Source: Nitrospira japonica
GTDB lineage: Bacteria; Nitrospirota; Thermodesulfovibrionia; Thermodesulfovibrionales; SM23-35
Assembly (NCBI GenBank): GCA_020725385.1
Contig: DYFC01000021.1
Coordinates: forward strand, 1 to 53,289
Length of the DNA: 53,289 nt
Reading direction: 5' to 3'
Part shown: piece after piece, positions 2,230 through 52,946 of the stretch
How the letters are laid out: every line of letters begins with the position of its first letter
How positions within the stretch are numbered: the first letter of the stretch is position 1
Notes under the pieces: model-generated
Seen by the model: the letters and a program-made list of their open reading frames with translations, nothing else
Told to the model about the DNA's origin: nothing
Database searches by the model: none
Program-made: the position numbers and the translations under genes

Positions 2230-3081
2230 TTATTTGATAATCTGATATGTTATTGCTAAAGTGTAATTAATTCCTTTTGCAGTATTTTTTCCGTATATTG
2301 AAGGGGTAAGGCCAGCTTCTATGCCCCAGTTTTTGTTAATTTTATAACCAATAACTACATCTAATTTTCCTATATCATAATTATTCGTTGCTGTTGGATT
2401 GCCATTTGAATCTACATCTTTGCCATTATCGGTGCTAAAAATTCCGTCAAGTTTAACTCTACCATAAATATTTTTTCTTAAATCAATCCCGACTTCAATT
2501 AGATACCTTATTTCATCAGAGGGCTCTTGCAGTCGCCATCTATATCCAATTTCAAAATTACAATACCCCGGGATTATTGGGTATAGTGTATGACCGTAAA
2601 GAAGGCGCATTTCTAAATCAATTTGACCGTTTCCAAGAGGAAGCTCATCGTCCTTTTCGTATGCCCATGGAATTTTCGTCAATAGCTGAGCAGATAAAAT
2701 ACCTTCTGCCAGTTTCATTATCTGCATTTTTGCGCCAACATCAATATCTCCTATGCCGGATGTTTTCTGTTCGGCTGTATAATCGTTCTTTCTAAGTCTT
2801 TTTATATAAATTGAATTTATGACTGTAAGATTATCGTATAAACCATACTCGAAATAATTGCTAATATGGTAATCACTAAAACTTCCGTTATTTGCAAAAT
2901 CAACTATTTCCCCATTGCTATCATAATCTTTGTTAGCAGAATAGTAATTAAAAGAAACCCTTTCATATAAATTACCTTTTTTCATTCCCCAGGCGCCGGC
3001 AAAAGAAAAATCGCATGTTATAAAAATAAACATTATCAATAAAAATAAAATAGTACTTTTGATTTTTACGGTATTTTTCAT
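2230..3081 (-). CDS. Exported outer-membrane beta-barrel protein
   Basis: 283 residues. It starts with a clear signal peptide (basic start, about 18 hydrophobic residues, cleavage near SFAGAWG). The rest is a run of amphipathic strands with alternating aromatic residues (YERVSFNYYSAN, YEFGLYDNLTV-type, FEIGYRWRL, LDVVIGYKINKNWGIEAGL), ending in TLAITYQIIK, as in transporter-like or phenol-degradation-type barrels. No plug or catalytic motif is visible. AGAGG lies 7 nt before the ATG. It stands alone, oriented away from the cellulose-synthase-like gene. Substrate and role are unknown. Confidence 0.65.
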   Translation of the reverse strand: MKNTVKIKSTILFLLIMFIFITCDFSFAGAWGMKKGNLYERVSFNYYSANKDYDSNGEIVDFANNGSFSDYHISNYFEYGLYDNLTVINSIYIKRLRKNDYTAEQKTSGIGDIDVGAKMQIMKLAEGILSAQLLTKIPWAYEKDDELPLGNGQIDLEMRLLYGHTLYPIIPGYCNFEIGYRWRLQEPSDEIRYLIEVGIDLRKNIYGRVKLDGIFSTDNGKDVDSNGNPTATNNYDIGKLDVVIGYKINKNWGIEAGLTPSIYGKNTAKGINYTLAITYQIIK

Positions 3082-3265: not shown

Positions 3266-4723
3266 ATGTTAAGAACGATTTTATTTTTTCTAACATTAAT
3301 ACATTTTCTTTGTCTCGGAAGTCTTGCATTGTATGGAATCCACAGGATATGGTTATTATCACAATTGGCAAGTGAAAGAAAAAAATATTCTGAAAAAATA
3401 TTACCTATTAAAAATAATCATCCTTTTGTGACTATCCAATTGCCAATTTATAATGAAAGATTCGTAGCAGGAAGATTAATAGATGCTGCAGCAAAAATCA
3501 AATGGCCTAAAGATAGATTTGAGATACATGTACTTGATGATTCAACCGATGACACGAAAAATATTATAGATAAAAATATCGAATTATGGAAAAAAGAAGG
3601 ATTAAACATTCATGTTATCAGGAGAAAAAATCGAGATGGATTTAAGGCAGGTGCTCTATCTAACGGATTAAAACAAGCTAAAGGAGAATTTATTGCTATA
3701 TTCGACGCAGACTTTATGCCAGAACCAGATTTTCTATGTAAAACAATCCCATATTTCACCGATAAAAAAGTAGGTATGATACAGGCTCGCTGGAGTTTTC
3801 TTAATTGCGGTCATTCATGGTTAACAAGGATTCAATCCATTTTTCTTGGCCAGCATTTTTCCATTGAACATTTAATAAGATTTAAAAAAGGGTTATTTTT
3901 TAATTTTAATGGAACTGCCGGCATATGGAGAAAAGAAGCTATTGAGACATCAGGTGGATGGCAATCTGATACTGTTACAGAGGATCTTGATTTAAGTTAT
4001 CGTGCACAAATAGCTGGCTGGAAATTTATATATCTCGATAATGTTTCTGTCCCGTCAGAATTACCAATTACTATCGCAGATTTTAGAAATCAACAACAGA
4101 GATGGGCAAAAGGTTCAATACAAACAGCAAAAAAAATATTACCCCAACTTCTCCTACTGCCTCTGTCATTTTCTGTTAAAAGAGAAGCTGTTGCACATCT
4201 CATGGCAAATTTGTGCTGGCTTTTAGGTGCAATCTCTGTCTTAACACTGTATCCGGCTATTTTGTATCGTAAAGAGATCGGTATATATCAAATACTTCAT
4301 ATTGATCTGCCTCTATTTATATTTTCTGGATTTGCTATTTTCATTTATTTTCTCTTCTTTTCTAAAATTAACAACAATAAGATTGATTACCATATACTTT
4401 TTTTATTACCCATTTTAAGCGTGGGAATAGCTCCAAGCATATCACTTTCTGTTCTAAAGGGTATTTTTAGTAAAGGAGGTAATTTTTGCAGGACTCCAAA
4501 ATATGGCATTACTGGTAAAAACAAAATACCTGAATCAGTCTTGATATATAAAACTAAGTCATATAGTTATATCATTTTAAATATAATTTTCTTTATTTAT
4601 TCACTTCTCCCTGTTTTTTTTGCTATGAATAGAAATACAATTTTTGCAATCCCTTTTTTGTTAATTTTTCCCGCAGGTTTTATCTTAATAATTTTTAAAG
4701 AACTTTCAGAACTTAAAAGTTAG
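3266..4723 (+). CDS. Membrane-bound processive family-2 glycosyltransferase (cellulose synthase-like)
   Basis: 485 residues: one N-terminal membrane helix, a cytoplasmic GT-A domain (about 50-300) and four to five C-terminal membrane helices. Catalytic signatures of processive inverting GT2 enzymes are all present: DDSTDDT, the DAD metal site (FDADFMP), the TEDLDLSYR acceptor motif and QQQRWAKGS, equivalent to QxxRW. Such proteins polymerise or transfer sugars from nucleotide-sugars at the inner membrane (glucomannan or beta-glucan type). No c-di-GMP PilZ domain is present. There is no Shine-Dalgarno; a weak TAATAT lies 7 nt before the ATG. The product is unknown. Confidence 0.82.
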   Translation: MLRTILFFLTLIHFLCLGSLALYGIHRIWLLSQLASERKKYSEKILPIKNNHPFVTIQLPIYNERFVAGRLIDAAAKIKWPKDRFEIHVLDDSTDDTKNIIDKNIELWKKEGLNIHVIRRKNRDGFKAGALSNGLKQAKGEFIAIFDADFMPEPDFLCKTIPYFTDKKVGMIQARWSFLNCGHSWLTRIQSIFLGQHFSIEHLIRFKKGLFFNFNGTAGIWRKEAIETSGGWQSDTVTEDLDLSYRAQIAGWKFIYLDNVSVPSELPITIADFRNQQQRWAKGSIQTAKKILPQLLLLPLSFSVKREAVAHLMANLCWLLGAISVLTLYPAILYRKEIGIYQILHIDLPLFIFSGFAIFIYFLFFSKINNNKIDYHILFLLPILSVGIAPSISLSVLKGIFSKGGNFCRTPKYGITGKNKIPESVLIYKTKSYSYIILNIIFFIYSLLPVFFAMNRNTIFAIPFLLIFPAGFILIIFKELSELKS

Positions 4724-4837: not shown

Positions 4838-6667
4838 ATGAAAAGATGTTTATTAATTTTTTTCACAGTAGCAATGTTATTTACTATGTTAATTCCTGAA
4901 TCGAGTTTTGCGAAGCTTTTACCATCGCAAAAAGAATTCCCAAATGCAAAGCTATTAGTTTCAGGGGATTCTCTTCAATCTGAGATTGGCAAAAAGAACT
5001 TAGTAATCATTGATGCACGCACATCAGGCTATGAAATTTCACATATACCAGGTGCCATTAATATTAAATTTGGAGATTATTTTAATCCCGGCACAGGTCT
5101 TCTTCCTGTTTCAGAGTTAAACAGTAAATTGAGTGCAGCTGGACTGAAAAGAAATTTGACATTCGTGATTTACGATAATACTACCGATTCATGGGGTGCT
5201 GCAGGAAGAATTTTCTGGATGCTTGAATATCTTGGATGCAATAATGTCCAAGTACTTGACGGCGGCTGGGATAAATGGGTTGCTGATGGAAAACCTACTG
5301 AATCTACTATAAACACATTGCCTGCAAGTAAATTCAAAGCATCAATAAAAGCATCGAAAAAAGCCACAAAAGATAAAATTAAGAAAATGCTCGGTAAGAA
5401 AAATTTTGCTATAATTGATTCCCGCACCGATGAAGAATTTATTGGGTGGCAACTATATGGTGAGGCAAGAGGCGGACATATTCCAGGAGCTGTACAAATT
5501 CCATATGCATGGTTTTTTAATTCTGACAAAACAGTTCTGAATTATAATTCACTTAAAAATATGTTTGAATCAAGAGGGATTACAAAGAAAAAAGAAGTTA
5601 CTGCTTATTGTACAGTTGGAATCAGAAGCGGTTTTGTTTATTTCTTATTAAGGTTGATGGGTTATTCAAAAGCATCAAATTACGATGCTTCTATTGTTGA
5701 ATGGGCAGCAGATTCTTCTTTGCCAATGGAGAAAATGGCTAATTATCATGCTTTAGTGTATCCAGAATGGATTAAAGATCTAATTGATGGTAAAAATCCG
5801 GCGACATATCCAGGCAATGGATATGTCATTCTATATACAACCTGGACAGCCCGGTACTATGAAAATAGAACAGATTATATAGGAACTAATTATGAAACTG
5901 GACATATACCCGGAGCAATTTTCCTTGATACTTATAGTATAGAAAACGGTCCTAACTCCGAATATGGAGAAGGTTATATGCACCCTTCTGAAGGAAATGT
6001 TAAACCAATTTCTGAATTACAACAATTCCTTGGAAATATTGGAATTTCGAAAAATAAGACTGTAATAGTTTATGCTGATGATGAAATTGCAATGATGACA
6101 GCAGGTCGAGTTGCATGGGCATTGCTATTAGCTGGTGTTGATGTCCGTATTTTAAATGGCGGTTATCAAGCGTGGGTAAAAATGGGGTTTCCAGTTGAAA
6201 CAACTCCAAATAGTTTATCCCCTATTGAGTTCGGAGATAGCCCCGGCAACCCTCAATATTTAGCAACCATGAATAATGTTAGAGATATAGTAAATGGTTC
6301 GGTAAGTAATATAGTAATAGCTGATGATCGTTCATGGGAAGAATATATAGGCGATTCTAATTCTTATTATCCTTACTTTTTTGCATTGGGGAGAATTCCA
6401 ACATCAAAATGGATAGGTGATTGGGTTGAAATAGTAAGACCTGATGCGCAGTCACTTAGGACATACACTGAAGTAGAATCTAATTGGAAAAAGGCTGGTT
6501 TTTCTTCAGAGGAAAAAATTTATTTTTATTGTGGCACAGGTTGGCGTTCAGGACTTTATACGTTCTATGCCTATTTGTTAGGATGGGATGCTGCAAATTA
6601 TGATGGTGGATGGTTCGAGTGGACATATTATCCCGAGAATCCTATAGAAAAAGGAACTCCTCAATAA
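4838..6667 (+). CDS. Exported sulfurtransferase with four rhodanese domains
   Basis: 609 residues with an N-terminal signal peptide (cleavage near SSFAKLL). Two TST-type pairs are joined head to tail. Domains 1 and 3 keep the fold signatures (IIDARTSGYEISHIPGA; a GHIPGAIFLDT block) but lack the catalytic Cys (VIYDNTTDSWGAAGR, VYADDEIAMMTAGR). Domains 2 and 4 have it: YCTVGIRSG (Cys258) and YCGTGWRSG (Cys565). The pattern inactive-active-inactive-active is that of two thiosulfate or 3-mercaptopyruvate sulfurtransferases fused. It would act in the periplasm on sulfane sulfur. AAAGGGAGG precedes the start. A strong terminator follows at 6688. Confidence 0.85.
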   Translation: MKRCLLIFFTVAMLFTMLIPESSFAKLLPSQKEFPNAKLLVSGDSLQSEIGKKNLVIIDARTSGYEISHIPGAINIKFGDYFNPGTGLLPVSELNSKLSAAGLKRNLTFVIYDNTTDSWGAAGRIFWMLEYLGCNNVQVLDGGWDKWVADGKPTESTINTLPASKFKASIKASKKATKDKIKKMLGKKNFAIIDSRTDEEFIGWQLYGEARGGHIPGAVQIPYAWFFNSDKTVLNYNSLKNMFESRGITKKKEVTAYCTVGIRSGFVYFLLRLMGYSKASNYDASIVEWAADSSLPMEKMANYHALVYPEWIKDLIDGKNPATYPGNGYVILYTTWTARYYENRTDYIGTNYETGHIPGAIFLDTYSIENGPNSEYGEGYMHPSEGNVKPISELQQFLGNIGISKNKTVIVYADDEIAMMTAGRVAWALLLAGVDVRILNGGYQAWVKMGFPVETTPNSLSPIEFGDSPGNPQYLATMNNVRDIVNGSVSNIVIADDRSWEEYIGDSNSYYPYFFALGRIPTSKWIGDWVEIVRPDAQSLRTYTEVESNWKKAGFSSEEKIYFYCGTGWRSGLYTFYAYLLGWDAANYDGGWFEWTYYPENPIEKGTPQ

Positions 6668-6687
6668 ATAATAGAAGTATTTTTCAT

Positions 6688-6722
6688 AAGGAAAGCTGTA
6701 ATAACAGCTTTCCTTATTTTTT
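6688..6722 (+). terminator. Rho-independent terminator of the four-domain rhodanese gene
   Basis: Perfect 12-bp stem: AAGGAAAGCTGT (6688-6699) and ACAGCTTTCCTT (6704-6715), 4-nt loop AATA, then a run of six T at 6717-6722. The 3' arm overlaps the stop codon of the minus-strand rhodanese gene. On the minus strand no T run follows, so it works in the plus direction only. Confidence 0.85.
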
Positions 6723-7598
6723 ATCTACCACAAGTTTTTCCCATTCTTCATATCCACCTTCATAGTTTTTTGCTGGAGGTAAGCCTGAAAGCGTATGAAC
6801 CATCCAAGCATAACCGGATCTTATTCCACCTGTGCAATAATATACAATGGGTTTATTAAGGTCTATATTATTCTTCTTTAACAAATCTTTTAGCTCGGTT
6901 GAATTTATCGGTCTTCTGTTTTTTCCCTTGTAAAAATTCTCCCATGAAATCCTTTTAGCACCTGGAATATGTCCTTTTATCCATTCAAGAAGCGAGCGGG
7001 TGTCAATAATTGTATAAGAGTTTTTATTTTTTTCAAGTTCTTGAGTTGAAATATTTATTGTGTCATCAATACTGTAAAAATATTTAACGATCTGCCGTGG
7101 TTTTTTTTCTTCGCCTGTTTTCAAAGGAAGTTTTAAATCTTTCCATTCCTGGATACCACCTAAAAGCAATCTTATTTTTCCTTTATGTCCAAGCAATTTC
7201 AATATCCAGAAATTCCATCCTTCTCCGCCCCAACTTTTATCTGCATCACCATAAATTACAATAGGACTATTTTCATCTATCCCAAGCTCTCCAAGTTTTT
7301 TTGAAAGTTCTTCTGGTTGGAGTATTTTGTATTTAACACCATTCTTATCTGTTTTTGTATAATCTTCCCATGAAAAAGAAATTGAACCCGGGATATGTTC
7401 TTTTAACCATTCCTTTTGTGGTCTTGCATCAAGAATTATCCATTTATTCAATTCATTATTTAATTGTTTAACACTCATTGATTCAATCTCACTTGCAATT
7501 GCTGCTTCAATATCTGAAAATAAAAAAGAAAATAAACCTATGCAAATTATGACATCTAACAAAATATCAAATTTCTTGAACATAACACCGTTTATCAT
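6714..7598 (-). CDS. Exported two-domain rhodanese sulfurtransferase
   Basis: 294 residues. An N-terminal hydrophobic stretch (about 9-30) looks like a signal peptide or anchor. Domain 1 (ILDARPQKEWLKEHIPGS) is catalytically silent (IVIYGDADKSW in place of the Cys loop). Domain 2 (IIDTRSLLEWIKGHIPGA) carries the active loop YYCTGGIRSG with Cys255. It is convergent with the four-domain rhodanese, so two exported sulfurtransferases face each other. The start at 7598 is supported by a strong AAGGGGG 5 nt upstream, which places its first 59 bp inside the opposite-strand glycosyltransferase gene. Confidence 0.83.
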   Translation of the reverse strand: MINGVMFKKFDILLDVIICIGLFSFLFSDIEAAIASEIESMSVKQLNNELNKWIILDARPQKEWLKEHIPGSISFSWEDYTKTDKNGVKYKILQPEELSKKLGELGIDENSPIVIYGDADKSWGGEGWNFWILKLLGHKGKIRLLLGGIQEWKDLKLPLKTGEEKKPRQIVKYFYSIDDTINISTQELEKNKNSYTIIDTRSLLEWIKGHIPGAKRISWENFYKGKNRRPINSTELKDLLKKNNIDLNKPIVYYCTGGIRSGYAWMVHTLSGLPPAKNYEGGYEEWEKLVVDKK

Positions 7599-8913
7599 TA
7601 TTGCCCCCTTTACATTAATTGCTATACAAAATGATTTGCGTTTACATATTCCTTTGCTTTTAGGAATAACTGCATTTAATGTAATAATTCTTTCTTTTAT
7701 ATTATTTTATGCTGAGAGAAATCAAATATCATGGTCACCTTTATTCATAATATCAGTTGCTGTAATAATAAGAATTTTATTTGTTTTTAAGCAACCAGAA
7801 TTATCCGATGATATTTACCGGTATTTGTTAGATGGAATACAATTAATCTCCGGGAATAATCCATACTCATTACCTCCTGATTCTATAAAAGTATACGATA
7901 AACATATTTACAATATATTAAAGAAAGTAAATCATCCGGATCTTATAACTATTTATCCACCCGCAGCACAAATATTGTTCGGCATAAGTGCATTCTTCAG
8001 CAAAACTATAATAAGCATAAAATTTATACTTGTTGTTATAGATATATTTACATGCATAATCATAATTAAAATTTTGAAAAATATTAACATTCCATCATGG
8101 AAATCTATCTTATATGCATGGCATCCTTTACCAGTTATAGAGATAGCAGGTTCAGGCCATATTGATTCTTCAGTCATATTTTTCCTTTCGTTAACTTTAT
8201 TTATAATATTTTCAAAAAAGTCAGATGAAATCTTAATAGAAAATTCTAAAATGGTTTTTTCTGGTATAACCTTTGGATGTTCTTTTATGACAAAACTATT
8301 TCCAATTATTCTTTTACCTTTTCTTCTAATTGTTTTGAATAAAAAAAATAGAATATTTTTTATTTCAGGTTTTATATTTATTACAGTATTCCTATTTTTA
8401 CTATTCTTTCCTGATATTATAAACATATTCAAAACCCTTGCAGTTTATCTAAACAATTGGGAATTTTCAAATTATGGCTTTATTTTGCTTAAAGATTCAC
8501 TTTCATCAGGAACATTAGCACGTTTAATATTACTCATAATATTTGTCTTTATTTCATGTATTATGTTTGTCTTGTTTTTAAGAAGAAAAAACTTAAATAT
8601 TAGAATTTTTCAATATATGTACTGGTTAATCTTTATGTATTTACTTTTAAATCCTACTTTACATCCATGGTATGTTCTATCACTTGTATTTCTGTTGCCA
8701 TTCTATACTAAACCTGAAGGTCTTGTATTTAGCTGGGTTGTTTTTCTTTCTTATTACATTCAAATCGAATATTTTCTCACAGGAAAATGGATTGAGATAA
8801 AATTATTTTCTGCGATGATATGGTTATCACCAATTGTTACCTTTATTATCATTAAAATAATTACTTTTACTATAAACCTTACAAAAAAAAGCTTCTCGGA
8901 AAACAACCCATAA
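7540..8913 (+). CDS. Polytopic membrane glycosyltransferase (GT-C, GT87/MptA-B-like)
   Basis: 457 very hydrophobic residues with about ten membrane segments. SDDIYRYLLDG followed by SGNNPY is the acidic first-loop signature of polyprenol-phosphate-mannose-dependent GT-C transferases. GHIDSS and LNPTLHPWY are further family-like blocks. Such enzymes add sugars from a lipid-linked donor on the outer face of the inner membrane. The neighbouring DPM1-like gene (8827-9567) could make that donor. The start is uncertain: ATG at 7540 or 7549, neither with a Shine-Dalgarno, and both inside the opposite-strand rhodanese gene. The 3' end overlaps the DPM1-like gene by 87 bp. Confidence 0.72.
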   Translation: MQIMTSNKISNFLNITPFIIIAPFTLIAIQNDLRLHIPLLLGITAFNVIILSFILFYAERNQISWSPLFIISVAVIIRILFVFKQPELSDDIYRYLLDGIQLISGNNPYSLPPDSIKVYDKHIYNILKKVNHPDLITIYPPAAQILFGISAFFSKTIISIKFILVVIDIFTCIIIIKILKNINIPSWKSILYAWHPLPVIEIAGSGHIDSSVIFFLSLTLFIIFSKKSDEILIENSKMVFSGITFGCSFMTKLFPIILLPFLLIVLNKKNRIFFISGFIFITVFLFLLFFPDIINIFKTLAVYLNNWEFSNYGFILLKDSLSSGTLARLILLIIFVFISCIMFVLFLRRKNLNIRIFQYMYWLIFMYLLLNPTLHPWYVLSLVFLLPFYTKPEGLVFSWVVFLSYYIQIEYFLTGKWIEIKLFSAMIWLSPIVTFIIIKIITFTINLTKKSFSENNP

Positions 8914-9567
8914 AATCTTGATACCCGCTTTAAGAGTTCCTTTCAATGTTTTACTTATCTTTGACTTGCCTCCTGCTCTTTTATAATAGGGAAGGGGGAC
9001 TTCTGTTATTCTTAGATTATATTTTAAAGCTCTAATCTGCATCTCTATTGTCCAGCCAAAATTTTTATCACCCATATCTAAATCCATCAAAGAGTCCCAT
9101 TTAATTGCTCTCATTGGTCCGAGATCATGATATTTAAATTTCCATAGTAAATAGGTTAGATATGTTGCCAGAAAATTACCAAAACGCTGCTGAAAAGACA
9201 GAGCTTCTTTACTTGTTGGAATCCTATTTTCAATTACAAAATCTGCTGAGCCATAGATAATAGGGTTTAGAATCTCATGAAGTCTTGAAATATCATCGCT
9301 TCCATCAGCATCAGCAAATGCGATTATATCAGGTGGTTCATGAGATAAAAACTTTATCCCTGCGAGACAGGCTCTTCCATAACCTGCTATAGGTTCATAA
9401 ACAACAAATACTCCATTATTCTGTGCAATATTTGCAGTCTCATCAATAGAGCCATTATCAACAACAATAACTTTATCTACAATTTCGGGAATAGCTTTGA
9501 GAACTAAAGGCAGAGTTTCAGCTTCATTCCTTGCTGGCAAAATAAGAGCTATTTTGGTATCTTGCAT
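8827..9567 (-). CDS. Family-2 glycosyltransferase, dolichyl/polyprenyl-phosphate mannosyltransferase-like
   Basis: 246 residues, GT-A fold only. LILPARNEAETLP, VIVVDNGSIDET and FADADGSDD (metal-binding DAD) are the typical motifs, and the segment DLGPMRAIKWDSL with GWTIEMQIRA follows the DPM1/prokaryotic GT2 pattern of soluble enzymes that load a sugar on polyprenyl phosphate. There are no C-terminal membrane helices. It is convergent with the GT-C gene and overlaps it by 87 bp; together they could form a donor-synthase and transferase pair. No Shine-Dalgarno is evident. Confidence 0.78.
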   Translation of the reverse strand: MQDTKIALILPARNEAETLPLVLKAIPEIVDKVIVVDNGSIDETANIAQNNGVFVVYEPIAGYGRACLAGIKFLSHEPPDIIAFADADGSDDISRLHEILNPIIYGSADFVIENRIPTSKEALSFQQRFGNFLATYLTYLLWKFKYHDLGPMRAIKWDSLMDLDMGDKNFGWTIEMQIRALKYNLRITEVPLPYYKRAGGKSKISKTLKGTLKAGIKILWVVFREAFFCKVYSKSNYFNDNKGNNW

Positions 9568-19326: not shown

Positions 19327-19938
19327 ATGTCTATAGAAATAGATGCAAGAGGGCTACCCTGCCCTCAACCTGTAATTAAAACAAAAGAAGGCTTAGAAAA
19401 AGCTAAAGGAAAAGAATTAGTAATTATTGTTAGCACATCTGAATCAAGGGATAATGTTCTTAGATTTTTATCTCATTCAGGTATAAATATTAATAAAGTT
19501 GAAGAAAATAACGGTTCATTTTATATATATACTGAAAAAACAAATAGAATACCTATAAATGTTGAAAAAAATGAATATATATGTTCAACCTCACAAATAA
19601 ATTTTGGAACGACTATTTTTATTAATAAAGACCGTATTGGACATGGCAATGACGAACTTGGCTATAATCTTATGAAAGCTTTCATAACAACAATTAAAGA
19701 TTTGTCTGTCCAGCCTAAGACTCTATGTTTTATGAATAGCGGGGTAAAACTTACAGTTAATGGGGCTGAAACTATTCCATATCTTAAGAATTTAGAGGAA
19801 AAAGGCATTGAGATTCTTGTATGCGGGACATGTCTTAGCTTTTACAATATCAAAGATAAATTAGCTGTCGGAAAAATTTCGAACATGTATGACATTTCTG
19901 AAACTATGCTAAAATCTTCCAAAGTCATTACTATATAA
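19327..19938 (+). CDS. yedF: Selenium metabolism protein YedF (TusA-like plus DsrE-like)
   Basis: 203 residues. Residues 1-70 are a TusA/SirA domain with the thiol motif DARGLPCPQPVIKTK (Cys12), a persulfide or perselenide relay. The second half (about 95-203) is DsrE-like, with GHGNDELGYNLMKAF, CFMNSGVKL and a conserved Cys pair region LVCGTCLSFY. This fusion is the YedF type that tracks with selenium use in bacteria. GGAGG lies 6 nt before the ATG. The stop overlaps the next start (TAATG). Confidence 0.85.
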   Translation: MSIEIDARGLPCPQPVIKTKEGLEKAKGKELVIIVSTSESRDNVLRFLSHSGININKVEENNGSFYIYTEKTNRIPINVEKNEYICSTSQINFGTTIFINKDRIGHGNDELGYNLMKAFITTIKDLSVQPKTLCFMNSGVKLTVNGAETIPYLKNLEEKGIEILVCGTCLSFYNIKDKLAVGKISNMYDISETMLKSSKVITI

Positions 19939-21095
19939 TGAGAAAAAAAGTTGTTTATTTTGATAATGCAGCAACATCTGGAATTAAACCGCCTTCTGTA
20001 ATTAAAGCTATATGTGATTGTCTTAAGAAAAAAAATGCTAATCCCGGTAGATCAGGTCATAGTCTTTCTGTAAAAGCTGCTGAAATAATTTATAGTTGTC
20101 GAGAAAAAATAGGCGAATTATTTAATTTTGATAAGACTGAAAATATAATTCTCACTAAAAATGCTACAGAATCTCTTAATATTGTCATCAACGGTATCTT
20201 AAATACAGGAGATGAAGTTATTACGACTTCAATGGAACATAACTCTGTATTAAGACCATTAACTTATTTAAAGGAAAAAAGGCATATTAAAGTAACGATA
20301 ATTAATGCAGATTTAAACGGTCAGATAAATCCAAAAGACATTTTGAATTCAATATCAGATAAAACAAAACTTATAGTAGTTACTTCTGCATCAAATGTTA
20401 CAGGGACTAAAATGGATGTAGAAAAAATAAGAGAAATCGCTCAATATAACAACATAAAAATTCTTGTAGATGCAGCACAAGGAGCAGGAACAGTAAAAAT
20501 TGATTTTAAAAAATCCCCATTTGATTTTATTGCAATTACAGGCCATAAACATCTTTTTGGACCGCAGGGTACGGGTGCTTTAATTATTAAAAATAATGAA
20601 GAACTTGAACCTTTAATGTTTGGTGGAACTGGAAGTCAATCAGAGAAAATTATTCATCCAGGTTTTTTACCGGACAAATTTGAATCTGGCACGCTTAATA
20701 CGCCCGGTTTTGCTGGATTATCCGCAGGTATTGAATTTATTTTAGGTAAAAAGATTGAAAATATAATCAGCTATGAAAAACAGTTAACAAATTATTTAAT
20801 AAAGAAATTAAAAGAAATTGAAGAAATTACTATATATGCAGCAAATGTAGAAAGAGTATCCACTGTTTCATTCAATATTAACGGATTCCAGCCATCAGAA
20901 GTCGCAGATTATTTAGACAAAAATCATGGAATCTGTGTACGTTCCGGGCTCCATTGCGCACCTGAAGCTCATAAGACCATAAATACATTTCCAAACGGTA
21001 CAATAAGATTTTCGTTGTCATATTTTAATACTAAGGAAGAAGTTGATACCTCAATTAACGCCTTGAAATCATTTATTATCAAAAATAAGAATTAG
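19938..21095 (+). CDS. Cysteine desulfurase family protein (EF2568 type)
   Basis: 385 residues, a PLP-dependent class V aminotransferase fold. The start YFDNAATSGIKPPSV, the PLP lysine in ITGHKHLFGP and the catalytic Cys loop RSGLHCAPEAH are clear. It would release sulfur from cysteine, or selenium from selenocysteine, and pass it on, most likely to the neighbouring YedF or DUF3343 protein. The order DUF3343-yedF-desulfurase resembles the Enterococcus faecalis selenium cluster containing EF2568. The start overlaps the yedF stop by 1 bp. The 3' end overlaps the convergent selB by 4 bp. Confidence 0.85.
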   Translation: MRKKVVYFDNAATSGIKPPSVIKAICDCLKKKNANPGRSGHSLSVKAAEIIYSCREKIGELFNFDKTENIILTKNATESLNIVINGILNTGDEVITTSMEHNSVLRPLTYLKEKRHIKVTIINADLNGQINPKDILNSISDKTKLIVVTSASNVTGTKMDVEKIREIAQYNNIKILVDAAQGAGTVKIDFKKSPFDFIAITGHKHLFGPQGTGALIIKNNEELEPLMFGGTGSQSEKIIHPGFLPDKFESGTLNTPGFAGLSAGIEFILGKKIENIISYEKQLTNYLIKKLKEIEEITIYAANVERVSTVSFNINGFQPSEVADYLDKNHGICVRSGLHCAPEAHKTINTFPNGTIRFSLSYFNTKEEVDTSINALKSFIIKNKN

Positions 21096-22966
21096 TTAAT
21101 TAATTGCCTCGTATCTCCCACTCTTTTAGTCAATTTAATAGCATCAAAATACTCAAGAAAATGAATTGCACACTTTCTATTTGTTGGAAAAATATCTTTG
21201 AATTCTCTGACTGTAATAAAAGGTTTTTCCCTGAAAAAGTTTCTCAGATTTTCAAGCCCTTTTTTATAAGAATCTGATTTAACATAAATAGAATTGCTTA
21301 TTTTTATTACTAGACCTTCCTTTTCCATTAATTTCAATATATTTAATATATATTTTTGTTCAATGTTAAGGATTTTGCTTAATTCCTCTATATTAGGTGG
21401 TTCTGTACCTGTTTTATTAAGTATTTGAAGTATTAAATCTTTATTGATTTCATCCTTCTTATTTAATAAAGGTTTAAAAGAAGAAAGTCTAACAATATCT
21501 TTTTCTATATAAATATCTTTCAAAGATGATAAAAGGCTGTTGAATATCTTAACATCTACTTTTATATAATTCCTGAGTTCTTCTTTTGGAATTCCGGGTT
21601 TTATCGGGTTATTTTCATGGTATTCCTTTAACTTTTTTATTATTATATCTTGAAAAATTCTAATAGCTTCAGAATGAAAAATAATATCATCATATTGGTA
21701 AACCAATTGCTTCGACCTCAAATCATTTAAAGATTGATATATTTCGGGTATATCTGCATTTATCCAGCCCTCTAATGTAGATAATCTTATACCATTTATT
21801 GATGTTCTTTTAATTCTTAATGCAATTTTTTCAGCTAAAGTACCATCATCGAAAAAAGTTAACTCATTAATGCTTTTTTGATGACTAATTTTATATGATG
21901 AAGGGTCAAGTATTTCACCTCCACCTATTGTATCAATAGGTGTAACTCTTCTAATTATAAATCTATCACCCGACATTGCAATCACCGGTTCGTTAAGCCG
22001 GAATTGACAATAACAAGTTTCACTCGGTTTTAATTCATTTTTTCCATATAATATAGTCCTTGCAGGTTTTTCGGAAGTACCTATGTGAAAATGTACAATC
22101 TCTCTATTTTTAAGACTTTTTACATGAGATAGTAATGTTACCTTTGCATCGATTTGATATGCAGGAACTAATTTATCAATGTTCACAACAGTATCTCCTC
22201 TTTTTAATAAATCCCTGTCAACTCCCTGAAGATTTATTGCAACTCTTTGTCCTGCATAAGCTTCGTTAACACTTTGACCGTGACAATGTAACCCTCTAAT
22301 TTTAGTTCTTACTTTACATGGGAGAATATCAACTTCTTCTCCAACACTTATTTTTCCAGAAAAAACAGTTCCGGTTACTACTGTGCCGAATCCTTTCAGT
22401 GTAAAAACTCTATCAATAGGCAGCCTAAAAATTCCTTTTGTTGATTTTGGATTAACTTTCAAAGATTCTTGTTTAATTTTCTCTTTCAATAATTCAATAT
22501 TCTTCATTGTGATAGTCGAAACATTAATTATTTCTGAATTTTCAAGAAAGGAGTCTTTTAGAAATTCTTTGACATCTTCTGTTACAAGATCAAGCCAATC
22601 TTTATCGACAAGATCGCATTTAGTAATTGCCACAATCCCTGATTTTATTTTTAAGAGATTGCATATATTAAAGTGTTCAATACTTTGCGGCATAATTCCC
22701 TCATCGGCAGCTACTACGAAAAGTACAATATCTATACCACCTGCACCTGCTAACATATTTCTCACAAGACGTTCATGTCCTGGCACATCTACAATTCCAA
22801 CTGTAAGTCCATTAGTATATTTAAGGTAAGCAAAACCTAAATCAATTGTTATTCCACGTTCTTTTTCTTCTTTTAGTCTATCGGGGTCAATACCTGTTAA
22901 TGCTTTAACTAAAGCGCTTTTTCCATGGTCAATATGTCCTGCGGTACCTAAAATTATATGATGCAT
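21092..22966 (-). CDS. selB: Selenocysteine-specific elongation factor SelB
   Basis: 624 residues. N-terminal EF-Tu-like GTPase: [16 protein letters not shown], the switch region [19 protein letters not shown] and TKCD. Beta-barrel domains 2 and 3 follow, then C-terminal winged-helix repeats (about 380-624) that bind the mRNA SECIS hairpin, ending in [10 protein letters not shown]. SelB brings Sec-tRNA to a recoded codon. The start at 22966 ([11 protein letters not shown]) is chosen because the longer frame would run into the tRNA gene ending 37 bp upstream. No Shine-Dalgarno is visible. It seems co-transcribed with the tRNASec-like gene. selA and selD are not in the window. Confidence 0.93.
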
Positions 22967-23003
22967 TTTTTTATAGAAATAAGAATATAAAAACTGTATT
23001 CTA

Positions 23004-23099
23004 TGGAGAGGGGTAGTGGGAATCGAACCCACCATAGCTTCTTGTCCAGAGCATCCACTGGTTTTGCAGACCAGGCGGGGCCCAGCCCCGATACCCCTC
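23004..23099 (-). tRNA. tRNASec-shaped tRNA with cysteine anticodon GCA and U73
   Basis: 96 nt with encoded CCA (23006-23004). Acceptor stem of 8 bp: GAGGGGTA (23099-23092) with TACCCCTC (23015-23008). D arm: 6-bp stem CGGGGC/GCCCCG with TGG loop. Anticodon stem CTGGT/ACCAG with loop CTGCAAA, so the anticodon is GCA (23067-23065). A 25-nt variable arm (23057-23033) can form about 8 bp with two bulges. T arm: GTGGG/CCCAC around TTCGATT. This is the bacterial tRNASec body (8/5 geometry). However, tRNASec normally has UCA and G73 (for SerRS); here GCA and U73 are the main CysRS identity elements. It lies 37 bp upstream of selB on the same strand with its own promoter. Confidence 0.9.
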
Positions 23100-51442: not shown

Positions 51443-52015
51443 CTAAAGTTGGGATTTTAATAATTTTCTTATTTCTTTAAGTATTTCATCAGGTTTCTTA
51501 TTAAAATCTATAATTGAAAGAACCTTACAATGTTCCCTTTTTTTATCTATAATTATAATTAATGGTGTTCGTGTTTCATGAAATGCTTTATGTAATTTAA
51601 ATGAAGGATCCGGTATAAGAGGGATAGGTATTTTATAATAATTTTTAAAATATGAAATCTCCTTTAAGTTGTTTCCAGCACCAATGCCTATCATCTTTAC
51701 TTTTTTACAAAGAACAGGATCAGCTTGAATCAATTTATAAAGCGCTACGAATTCATTGGCACGGCTCTGGCAAACCGGGCAATAAATGCTGAAAACCTCT
51801 ATTAATACAAAATCAGCTTTTATATTTTTTAGAGAACATCTGCTATTGTCAGTGAATCCAAGATAATCAAGTTCATCTTTAATAAACTGGGTATCGAATT
51901 TGATTTCAGGGATTGAGTCACCTGCTTTTAATATTTTTTCATTCCCTGCGATACAAGGCGTATATACACAAATAAAAAGAAGATATATAAAAATTATTAA
52001 AAATTTACGATTCAC
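51443..52015 (-). CDS. Exported thioredoxin/TlpA-like thiol-redox protein
   Basis: 190 residues from a GTG start that overlaps the MauE-like stop by 11 bp. An N-terminal signal peptide (KFLIIFIYLLFICVYTPCIAG) is followed by a peroxiredoxin/TlpA-like domain: GDSIPEIKFD, EVFSIYCPVCQSR (active CPVC at about residue 93), a cis-Pro segment ETRTPLIIIIDKK. It would handle disulfides or persulfides in the periplasm. A TTG at 52072 would extend it inside the upstream gene and is less likely because the signal peptide would then be buried. Confidence 0.75.
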   Translation of the reverse strand: MNRKFLIIFIYLLFICVYTPCIAGNEKILKAGDSIPEIKFDTQFIKDELDYLGFTDNSRCSLKNIKADFVLIEVFSIYCPVCQSRANEFVALYKLIQADPVLCKKVKMIGIGAGNNLKEISYFKNYYKIPIPLIPDPSFKLHKAFHETRTPLIIIIDKKREHCKVLSIIDFNKKPDEILKEIRKLLKSQL

Positions 52016-52511
52016 TTTTTTGGCCCGAGGAACTGATATTAAAGAACCTATGGCTGAACCGCCTTCTTTCAAGATAAATTAATAAAAGACATAAAAGAGC
52101 ACAGAATAAATTAAAAAAAACATGAATATGGTTTATACCTGTAAATAAGATTTCATTACCAAAACAACCACAATCAAAATTAACATTGCGTTTTATATTG
52201 ATTTCTATTGCGATTATAAACGAAATAAGAAGACAAAATTGTATAAAAGCACATGATCTCACAAATAAACCTGTGCAGAGGAAAATCCCGCTTATAAATT
52301 CAATCCAAGGAAGGATTAAAGCAAATAAATTAACTATTTTAAAATCAATTAATTCATATCTTGAAATATTGATTCTAAAATCATCAATATTGATTATTTT
52401 ATCGAAACTTGCATATATAAAAAGAAACCCGAGAAAACATCTCAATAAAAGTATTATTTTCCCCCTATGAAATTTTATTTTTCGACAATAATCAAACATT
52501 TCAAACCACAT
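52005..52511 (-). CDS. MauE/DoxX-like membrane protein
   Basis: 168 residues with four membrane helices (about 20-40, 58-82, 85-102, 125-145). The loop motif FDCGCFGNE is typical of MauE, a four-helix protein that helps disulfide formation or electron transfer to periplasmic thiol proteins. It lies between a rhodanese-like gene (9 bp upstream) and a TlpA-like gene (11-bp overlap), a common MauE neighbourhood. It may relay electrons between quinone and the TlpA-like protein. Confidence 0.72.
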   Translation of the reverse strand: MWFEMFDYCRKIKFHRGKIILLLRCFLGFLFIYASFDKIINIDDFRINISRYELIDFKIVNLFALILPWIEFISGIFLCTGLFVRSCAFIQFCLLISFIIAIEINIKRNVNFDCGCFGNEILFTGINHIHVFFNLFCALLCLLLIYLERRRFSHRFFNISSSGQKSES

Positions 52512-52520
52512 TAAAAATAT

Positions 52521-52946
52521 CTATGAAACAATCACAATAGTAATATTATTGAAACCTTTTAAGAAAAGATTATGTGCAAGCTCAAGATCATAAGCGCGAC
52601 TTAATGTTCTACCATAGATAAATATTCTGGAATCCTTGGATGCATTTGCAAGATATAACCCATAGAAAAAATCAAATTCTTCAACAGGAAAATTGAATGA
52701 ATTGACAGGTCTATCCTCTAAAAACATTTCGTGTGGTCTTGCATCAAAAACAAAACAATCATAAGAATCGCATCTAAAACCTTCAATTTCTTTTAAGCTT
52801 ATGCTTTTATATAAGTCTGCATGCAGATAACTTGGTATTAACTGAATTTTATTAGTTCTAAATAAATTTATAATAAAAGACAAAACAACACTGATAAATA
52901 TTACCAGTAAAATATCGCATAGCAGTATTTTTGTCTTCTTTAGCAT
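52521..52946 (-). CDS. Membrane-anchored rhodanese-fold protein without catalytic Cys
   Basis: 141 residues: an N-terminal membrane helix (about 8-28) and a single rhodanese-like domain with CFVFDARPHEMFLEDRPVNS (signature DARP..., normally followed by GHIPGA). The active-site loop reads IYGRTLSRAYDLEL with no Cys, so it cannot carry a persulfide and probably binds a partner. First gene of the MauE/TlpA-like unit. The start ATG at 52946 has no clear ribosome-binding site. Confidence 0.7.
   Translation of the reverse strand: MLKKTKILLCDILLVIFISVVLSFIINLFRTNKIQLIPSYLHADLYKSISLKEIEGFRCDSYDCFVFDARPHEMFLEDRPVNSFNFPVEEFDFFYGLYLANASKDSRIFIYGRTLSRAYDLELAHNLFLKGFNNITIVIVS

Follow-up and report, generated by a model that had tools for sequence, protein, structure and literature searches.

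The window, i.e., the whole stretch of DNA analyzed here (a contig of 53,289 bases from a Nitrospirota genome that is 96.6% complete), encodes a 609-residue rhodanese with four domains and two unlike halves. Domains 1 and 2 are a thiosulfate sulfurtransferase (TST)-type pair with the active Cys258 in its second domain, and domains 2 to 4 correspond end to end, by sequence and predicted structure, to the three-domain layout of the EanB/YnjE family, a group of enzymes able to attach sulfur to small ring compounds. The explanation that we favor, at a probability of about 0.5, is an exported persulfide transferase whose acceptor is in the envelope or outside the cell; the TST half would load the sulfur and the EanB/YnjE half deliver it.

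Table 1. The four-domain rhodanese gene of the window, its parts, and its neighbors
Feature	Position	Strand	Basis
BARREL, predicted outer-membrane beta-barrel (signal helix and 12 long strands)	2230..3081	-	Model; nearest folds COG4313 channel and FapF
GT2cel, cellulose-synthase-like family 2 glycosyltransferase	3266..4723	+	
Four-domain, probably exported rhodanese, 609 aa	4838..6667	+	ORF, Pfam, loop cysteines, model
Putative signal peptide, residues 1-25	4838..4912	+	Sequence, by eye
Rhodanese domain 1, residues 40-155, loop without Cys	4955..5302	+	
Rhodanese domain 2, residues 174-298, equivalent to the degenerate first domain of EanB/YnjE	5357..5731	+	Alignment and structure
Cys258 codon, loop CTVGIRS	5609..5611	+	
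Rhodanese domain 3, residues 305-454, loop without Cys	5750..6199	+	
Rhodanese domain 4, residues 474-600, EanB/YnjE-type active domain	6257..6637	+	
EanB/YnjE-type active-site loop GDSNSYYPYFFALGRIP, with Tyr511 (6368-6370), equivalent to EanB Tyr353	6350..6400	+	
Cys565 codon (EanB Cys412), loop CGTGWRS with Thr567 and Arg570	6530..6532	+	
RHOD2, probably exported two-domain rhodanese, Cys255, convergent to the four-domain gene	6714..7598	-	Two PF00581 stretches
GT87-type membrane glycosyltransferase	7540..8913	+	
GT2dpm, polyprenyl-phosphate-sugar synthase-like GT2	8827..9567	-	

The gene starts with ATG and its product matches PF00581 in four stretches (Pfam, E 2.7e-60), in agreement with the original prediction of four rhodanese domains, not two, on one chain. 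Cysteines are present at positions 4, 134, 258, and 565 only, and those in active loops, Cys258 (AYCTVGIRSG) and Cys565 (FYCGTGWRSG), are confined to domains 2 and 4, which corroborates the inactive-active-inactive-active pattern initially proposed. The Cys565 codon is TGT, specifying cysteine and not selenocysteine (TGA). By eye, the N-terminus MKRCLLIFFTVAMLFTMLIPESSFA is hydrophobic and resembles a type I signal peptide, so that export, also part of the original prediction, is probable. A sister species of the same genus (genome G001, locus L065) carries the same gene, 88% identical and truncated by a contig edge; the gene in the window is therefore not an assembly accident.

The two halves of the protein are 30.5% identical over 259 residues (E 1.5e-29) and had been taken for two complete TST-type sulfurtransferases, a description from which the C-terminal pair departs, as it groups with EanB/YnjE (100/100 support; see below). 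In phmmer searches against the PDB, two-domain rhodaneses match residues 37 to 298, whereas residues 175 to 608 align to the whole of EanB, the Chlorobium limicola enzyme for anaerobic ergothioneine synthesis (PDB 6h98 and 6ktv; E 1.5e-57), and residues 172 to 606 to Escherichia coli YnjE (PDB 2wlr and 3ipo; E 2.1e-42), which is annotated with a role in molybdopterin synthesis. The best NCBIfam model is that of MST, PRK11493.1, at 156 bits against a cutoff of 250. An AlphaFold2 model of residues 25 to 609, built from 20 aligned sequences (pLDDT 92.9, pTM 0.90), superposes on rhodanese folds in both halves. Model residues 1 to 275 fit the A. vinelandii rhodanese 1e0c (Z 34.8; 262 residues aligned, 1.8 Å), the N half giving Z 34.1 with the two-domain rhodanese 1uar, and residues 147 to 585 can be fitted as a single body onto EanB (Z 37.0; 405 residues, 2.2 Å), as can residues 148 to 585 onto YnjE (Z 35.6). 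Both superpositions include domain 2, which therefore serves in the TST unit as well as in the EanB/YnjE unit.

Seen against the known proteins, the N half has the fold and the CTVGIRS active loop of two-domain thiosulfate sulfurtransferases (1e0c, 1uar, and SseA), but here the TST pair is fused to a second, different pair. Domains 2 to 4 are the three domains of EanB in the same order and orientation; unlike EanB, the window protein has an additional N-terminal domain, a probable signal peptide, and, in the first of the shared domains, an active Cys. YnjE has the same three-domain core but is made up of those three domains only and lies inside the three-domain clade described below. Two active sites per chain are reportedly also found in a tandem-domain rhodanese of Desulfitobacterium hafniense (Prat 2012).

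The match to EanB extends to the active site. With EanB numbered such that its loop Cys is residue 412, which places Tyr353 and Arg417 at their published positions, EanB Tyr353, Cys412, Thr414, and Arg417 align with Tyr511, Cys565, Thr567, and Arg570. Catalytic roles of Tyr353, Cys412, and Arg417 are described in PMC10903977. The segment SNSYYPYFFALGRIP, previously singled out as an insertion in the last domain, aligns over the EanB Tyr353 region; it is therefore the loop bringing this Tyr, i.e., an EanB/YnjE-type active-site loop. All four residues (Tyr, Cys, Thr, and Arg) are shared by YnjE, so the Tyr marks the EanB/YnjE superfamily and not EanB alone. In the alignment of the loops, a G(S/T)DxxHM stretch (GSDxxHM in the case of EanB) directly follows the loop in EanB, YnjE, and most of the three-domain proteins compared, and is absent from the window protein.

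The phylogeny of the halves was analyzed as a tree of domain pairs (66 rows) in which the root was set, not inferred, on the branch separating the N/TST side from the C side, and from which the two-domain, long-branched rows win_r2, L063_r2, and L077_r2 were left out and to which 15 rows of newly found members were added. In this tree, the C-type pairs and all three-domain C pairs, including EanB/YnjE, form a single clade of 42 rows (100/100). EanB/YnjE are nested among the C pairs of four- and six-domain proteins (97/80, 99/91, and 99/92 at the starred branches), and the three-domain clade (20 rows, 100/98) excludes the window pair. The nesting was less clear in an earlier tree of 54 rows (83/88 at the key fork). 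A plain in-chain duplication of TST, with all N halves and C pairs in one clade, was rejected (AU p 0.00027). The window C pair is located inside a Desulfobacterota group, which makes lateral transfer of the gene into the Nitrospirota likely.

Taken with the collinear match, the superposition, the shared and conserved D2-D3 linker, and the odd number of domains in EanB/YnjE, the nested tree indicates that three-domain EanB/YnjE probably arose from a four-domain chain by losing both domain 1 and the Cys in domain 2, a history read from a tree with several long branches and a placed root. We also considered, and dropped, a particular closeness of domain 2 to the EanB/YnjE first domain: the single-domain tree gave an AU p of 0.233, and a domain-2 profile did no better, reaching 112 bits with Geobacter TST-like domains but 95 bits at best with the first domains of EanB/YnjE-type proteins. 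These two results, like the weaker support in the 54-row tree, count against the loss scenario.

The protein could in principle be an anaerobic ergothioneine synthase with an extra domain, thiolating hercynine, given that EanB and its mutants come out on top in both the sequence and the structure comparisons and that all four EanB residues are conserved. We consider this highly improbable, mainly because EgtD/EanA (PF10017) is absent from the window genome and from 8/8 genomes that host four/six-domain or related genes, that is, from 9/9 genomes searched; with no EgtD, ergothioneine synthesis is unlikely. The probable export of the protein, the missing G(S/T)DxxHM stretch, the position of the window pair outside the clade that includes EanB, and the sharing of the Tyr, Cys, and Arg with YnjE also speak against it.

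A scan of 84,980 species genomes yielded 347 relatives, and among the best 80 of these, which were examined, nine (L061 to L069) have the architecture of the window protein or an extension of it, most of the others having three domains; the architecture is thus as uncommon as originally supposed. Six rhodanese stretches were identified by Pfam in L063, L064, L069, and L235, and five in L067, which is cut at its 5′ end; L069 has two C-type pairs in reverse order relative to L063. Further copies were found in G404, G405, G597, G629, G707, and G731 by searching 395 Desulfobacterota genomes. In the phylum of the window, also represented by 395 genomes, the C half occurs at high score in the window genome and G001 only, the score dropping from 648 to 96 bits with the next genome. 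A degenerate-looking copy in G456 (L239), with a TAG and several TGA codons inside, was excluded from the member counts that follow. By eye, a lipobox is present in 11/15 members with a complete N-terminus, the other four, including the window protein, having a plain signal-like sequence. Across the 20 EanB/YnjE-type pairs of 16 proteins, the catalytic codon specifies Cys in 19 and is TGA in one, and a Tyr lies seven residues before the GRI motif in 18 (the exceptions being L066 and L233). The N-half Cys is conserved in 14 of the 16 members and replaced by Ser in two (L232 and L237). No description of a four- or six-domain exported EanB/YnjE-type family was found among the titles and abstract openings listed from the open-license literature; the family is rare and its architecture is new, while its parts are known.

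The one TGA is found at the Cys565-equivalent codon of L233 (position 10154; genome G597), where the frame continues through the conserved loop to YDGS and a stable hairpin follows 3′ (z -2.3). It likely encodes selenocysteine, to judge from these sequence features; the SelB of G597 is a fragment that scores 189.6 bits, under the cutoff of 242. Rhodanese selenoproteins are already known (PMC13188914 and PMC9312934), and the UxxG motif of L233 resembles that of the rhodanese-like selenoproteins (forms 1 to 5) of PMC13188914, whose available part lists no multidomain EanB/YnjE-type form among them; the window protein itself differs in having Cys. Five Desulfobacterota genomes (L243 to L246 and L258) also have exported two-domain rhodaneses in which an in-frame TGA takes the place of the catalytic Cys codon (IYIYUQSGVRS, with minor variations). 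SelB is over cutoff in 14/17 genomes searched. In the window, a YedF/TusA-like protein and a cysteine desulfurase adjoin a convergent SelB over cutoff (19327-23035), constituting a selenium/selenocysteine gene group, and the same genome has a second SelB over cutoff (G000:C52:14715-16565).

The genes of the cluster around the four-domain gene lie on both strands (Table 1). The separate two-domain rhodanese that was said to face it was recovered as RHOD2, and its export is likewise probable. Between the two convergent rhodanese genes, a likely shared terminator is seen by eye at 6687-6722, where a run of T comes after the inverted repeat GGAAAGCTGTAATAACAGCTTTCC. The 283-residue BARREL is modeled as a 12-stranded barrel (pLDDT 82), with TM scores on the query of 0.64 to 0.72 for the best four matches to the COG4313 channel and FapF.

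Neighbors were counted for the 12 four/six-domain genes with at least 10 kb of DNA, five others on short contigs or contig edges being left out. BARREL lies within 10 kb of 8/12 of these genes, or 7/11 if the window, the source of the probe, is omitted, compared to 0/69 three-domain loci; the latter also have no glycosyltransferase of these families within 10 kb, whereas most of the eight BARREL-adjacent genes do have glycosyltransferases nearby. The other families found within 10 kb of the 12 genes were GT87 (six genes), GT2dpm and GT2cel (five each), a CCG/VTT Fe-S protein (four), RHOD2 (two), and a NapH-like Fe-S protein (two), in counts for which some loci supplied the probe and count themselves (the window for BARREL, GT2cel, GT87, GT2dpm, and RHOD2, L069 for CCG/VTT, L061 for the NapH-like protein, and L063 for a RHOD2). 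At the genome level, BARREL is present in 5/8 Desulfobacterota genomes with the gene versus 15/387 without it (p 1e-5), a difference that becomes 1/4 versus 15/387 (p 0.15) once the four genomes that had been identified by way of the gene are set aside. Three genomes with the gene (G597, G629, and G731) have no BARREL, and G001, whose contig breaks inside the gene, has neither BARREL nor RHOD2.

BARREL also has a life of its own in the window's phylum, where 18 of 20 BARREL loci (L179 to L198) have a cellulose-synthase-like GT2 and many also a GT2dpm. No multidomain exported rhodanese is found in these 20 loci, two of which have small rhodanese ORFs. This BARREL/GT2 cluster is a widespread envelope cluster, and the barrel could be an unspecific porin.

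Several further rhodanese loci were noted. L237 (7643-10837) encodes a 1,064-residue protein directly after BARREL, with about 430 residues without assignment followed by four rhodanese domains. In Geobacteraceae, L077 (4389-13642) and L092 have a different four-domain rhodanese beside BARREL, with both halves TST-like and a CTKGIRS loop; L077 also holds CCG/VTT, GT2dpm, RHOD2, and the arsenosugar radical SAM gene ArsS. An arsenosugar link was dropped because no TIGR04167 match in the window genome passes the cutoff. A radical SAM gene is found near L068 and L238, its best NCBIfam match, BioB, being far under cutoff. At 52521-52946 of the window there is, by eye, a small ORF that looks like one rhodanese domain lacking the loop Cys, which adjoins membrane and redoxin-like ORFs (52005-52511 and 51443-52072).

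These neighborhoods bear on two other explanations. The protein may simply be a stand-alone periplasmic enzyme for detoxification or sulfane-sulfur scavenging (cyanide, thiosulfate, or polysulfide) whose neighbors are incidental, which we think unlikely, if far from negligible. Its N half is an ordinary TST pair, DsrA in the window genome implies that sulfur compounds are around, G001 has the gene but not BARREL and RHOD2, and 4/12 genes with flanking DNA have none or one of the neighbor families and no BARREL. Set against this are the repeated co-location with BARREL in unrelated genomes, the presence of BARREL near other rhodaneses (10 of the 20 BARREL-containing Desulfobacterota genomes have one at ≤5 kb), and the EanB/YnjE-type half, which simple TST activity would not need. 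DsrA, moreover, is over cutoff in only 4/16 host genomes, so a link with sulfate reduction was rejected as a rule.

The other explanation is a system like that of Geobacter ExtH, a rhodanese lipoprotein with the porin ExtI (PMC5877670 and PMC6148476), i.e., an outer-membrane or periplasmic rhodanese and a porin handling selenite, tellurite, or another chalcogen, as proposed there. The pairing of an exported rhodanese with an outer-membrane barrel is as in extHI, and the likely selenocysteine at the catalytic position of a relative, the YedF-like, desulfurase, and SelB genes in the window, and the frequency of SelB in the genomes searched all fit a chalcogen role. However, the ExtH model NF040901 scores 50.1 bits with the window protein, below the cutoff of 200, and ExtI, compared by description only, is given as 45 kDa versus 283 residues for BARREL. 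Glycosyltransferase genes, and not a cytochrome cluster, adjoin the window gene. We hold an ExtH-like function to be doubtful.

In the persulfide transferase reading, which we prefer, domains 1 and 2 would take sulfur from thiosulfate or polysulfide at Cys258, and domains 3 and 4 would carry it as a persulfide on Cys565, assisted by Tyr511 and Arg570, and place it on the acceptor. Domain 2 is structurally shared, completing the TST pair and at the same time occupying the place of the degenerate first domain of EanB. The acceptor is probably extracytoplasmic and may have a connection with the neighboring envelope system, i.e., the barrel, the glycosyltransferases, and, in relatives, Fe-S electron-transfer proteins; the neighbors suggest envelope glycan or lipid chemistry. 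A sulfur relay from Cys258 to Cys565 is plausible, but neither the relay nor loading by the N half would be general, because the N-half Cys is Ser in 2/16 members.

The four- and six-domain exported rhodaneses form a modular family and are the probable source of three-domain EanB/YnjE, whose odd layout would have its origin in a four-domain chain minus the first domain. A bolder idea, to which we assign a low probability, is that they represent an undescribed envelope pathway of Desulfobacterota and some Nitrospirota, in which exported poly-rhodaneses of four or six domains, carrying as many as three active sites and in one case selenocysteine, would turn polysulfide into C-S bonds outside the cytoplasm, on an envelope glycan, lipid, or heterocycle supplied by the neighboring glycosyltransferases and passed through the barrel. 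If this were true, EanB and YnjE would be reduced offshoots of an exported chemistry. The family provides a concrete enzyme set, with an unusual and probably exported multi-site layout, a recurring gene neighborhood, and a natural Cys-to-Sec candidate.
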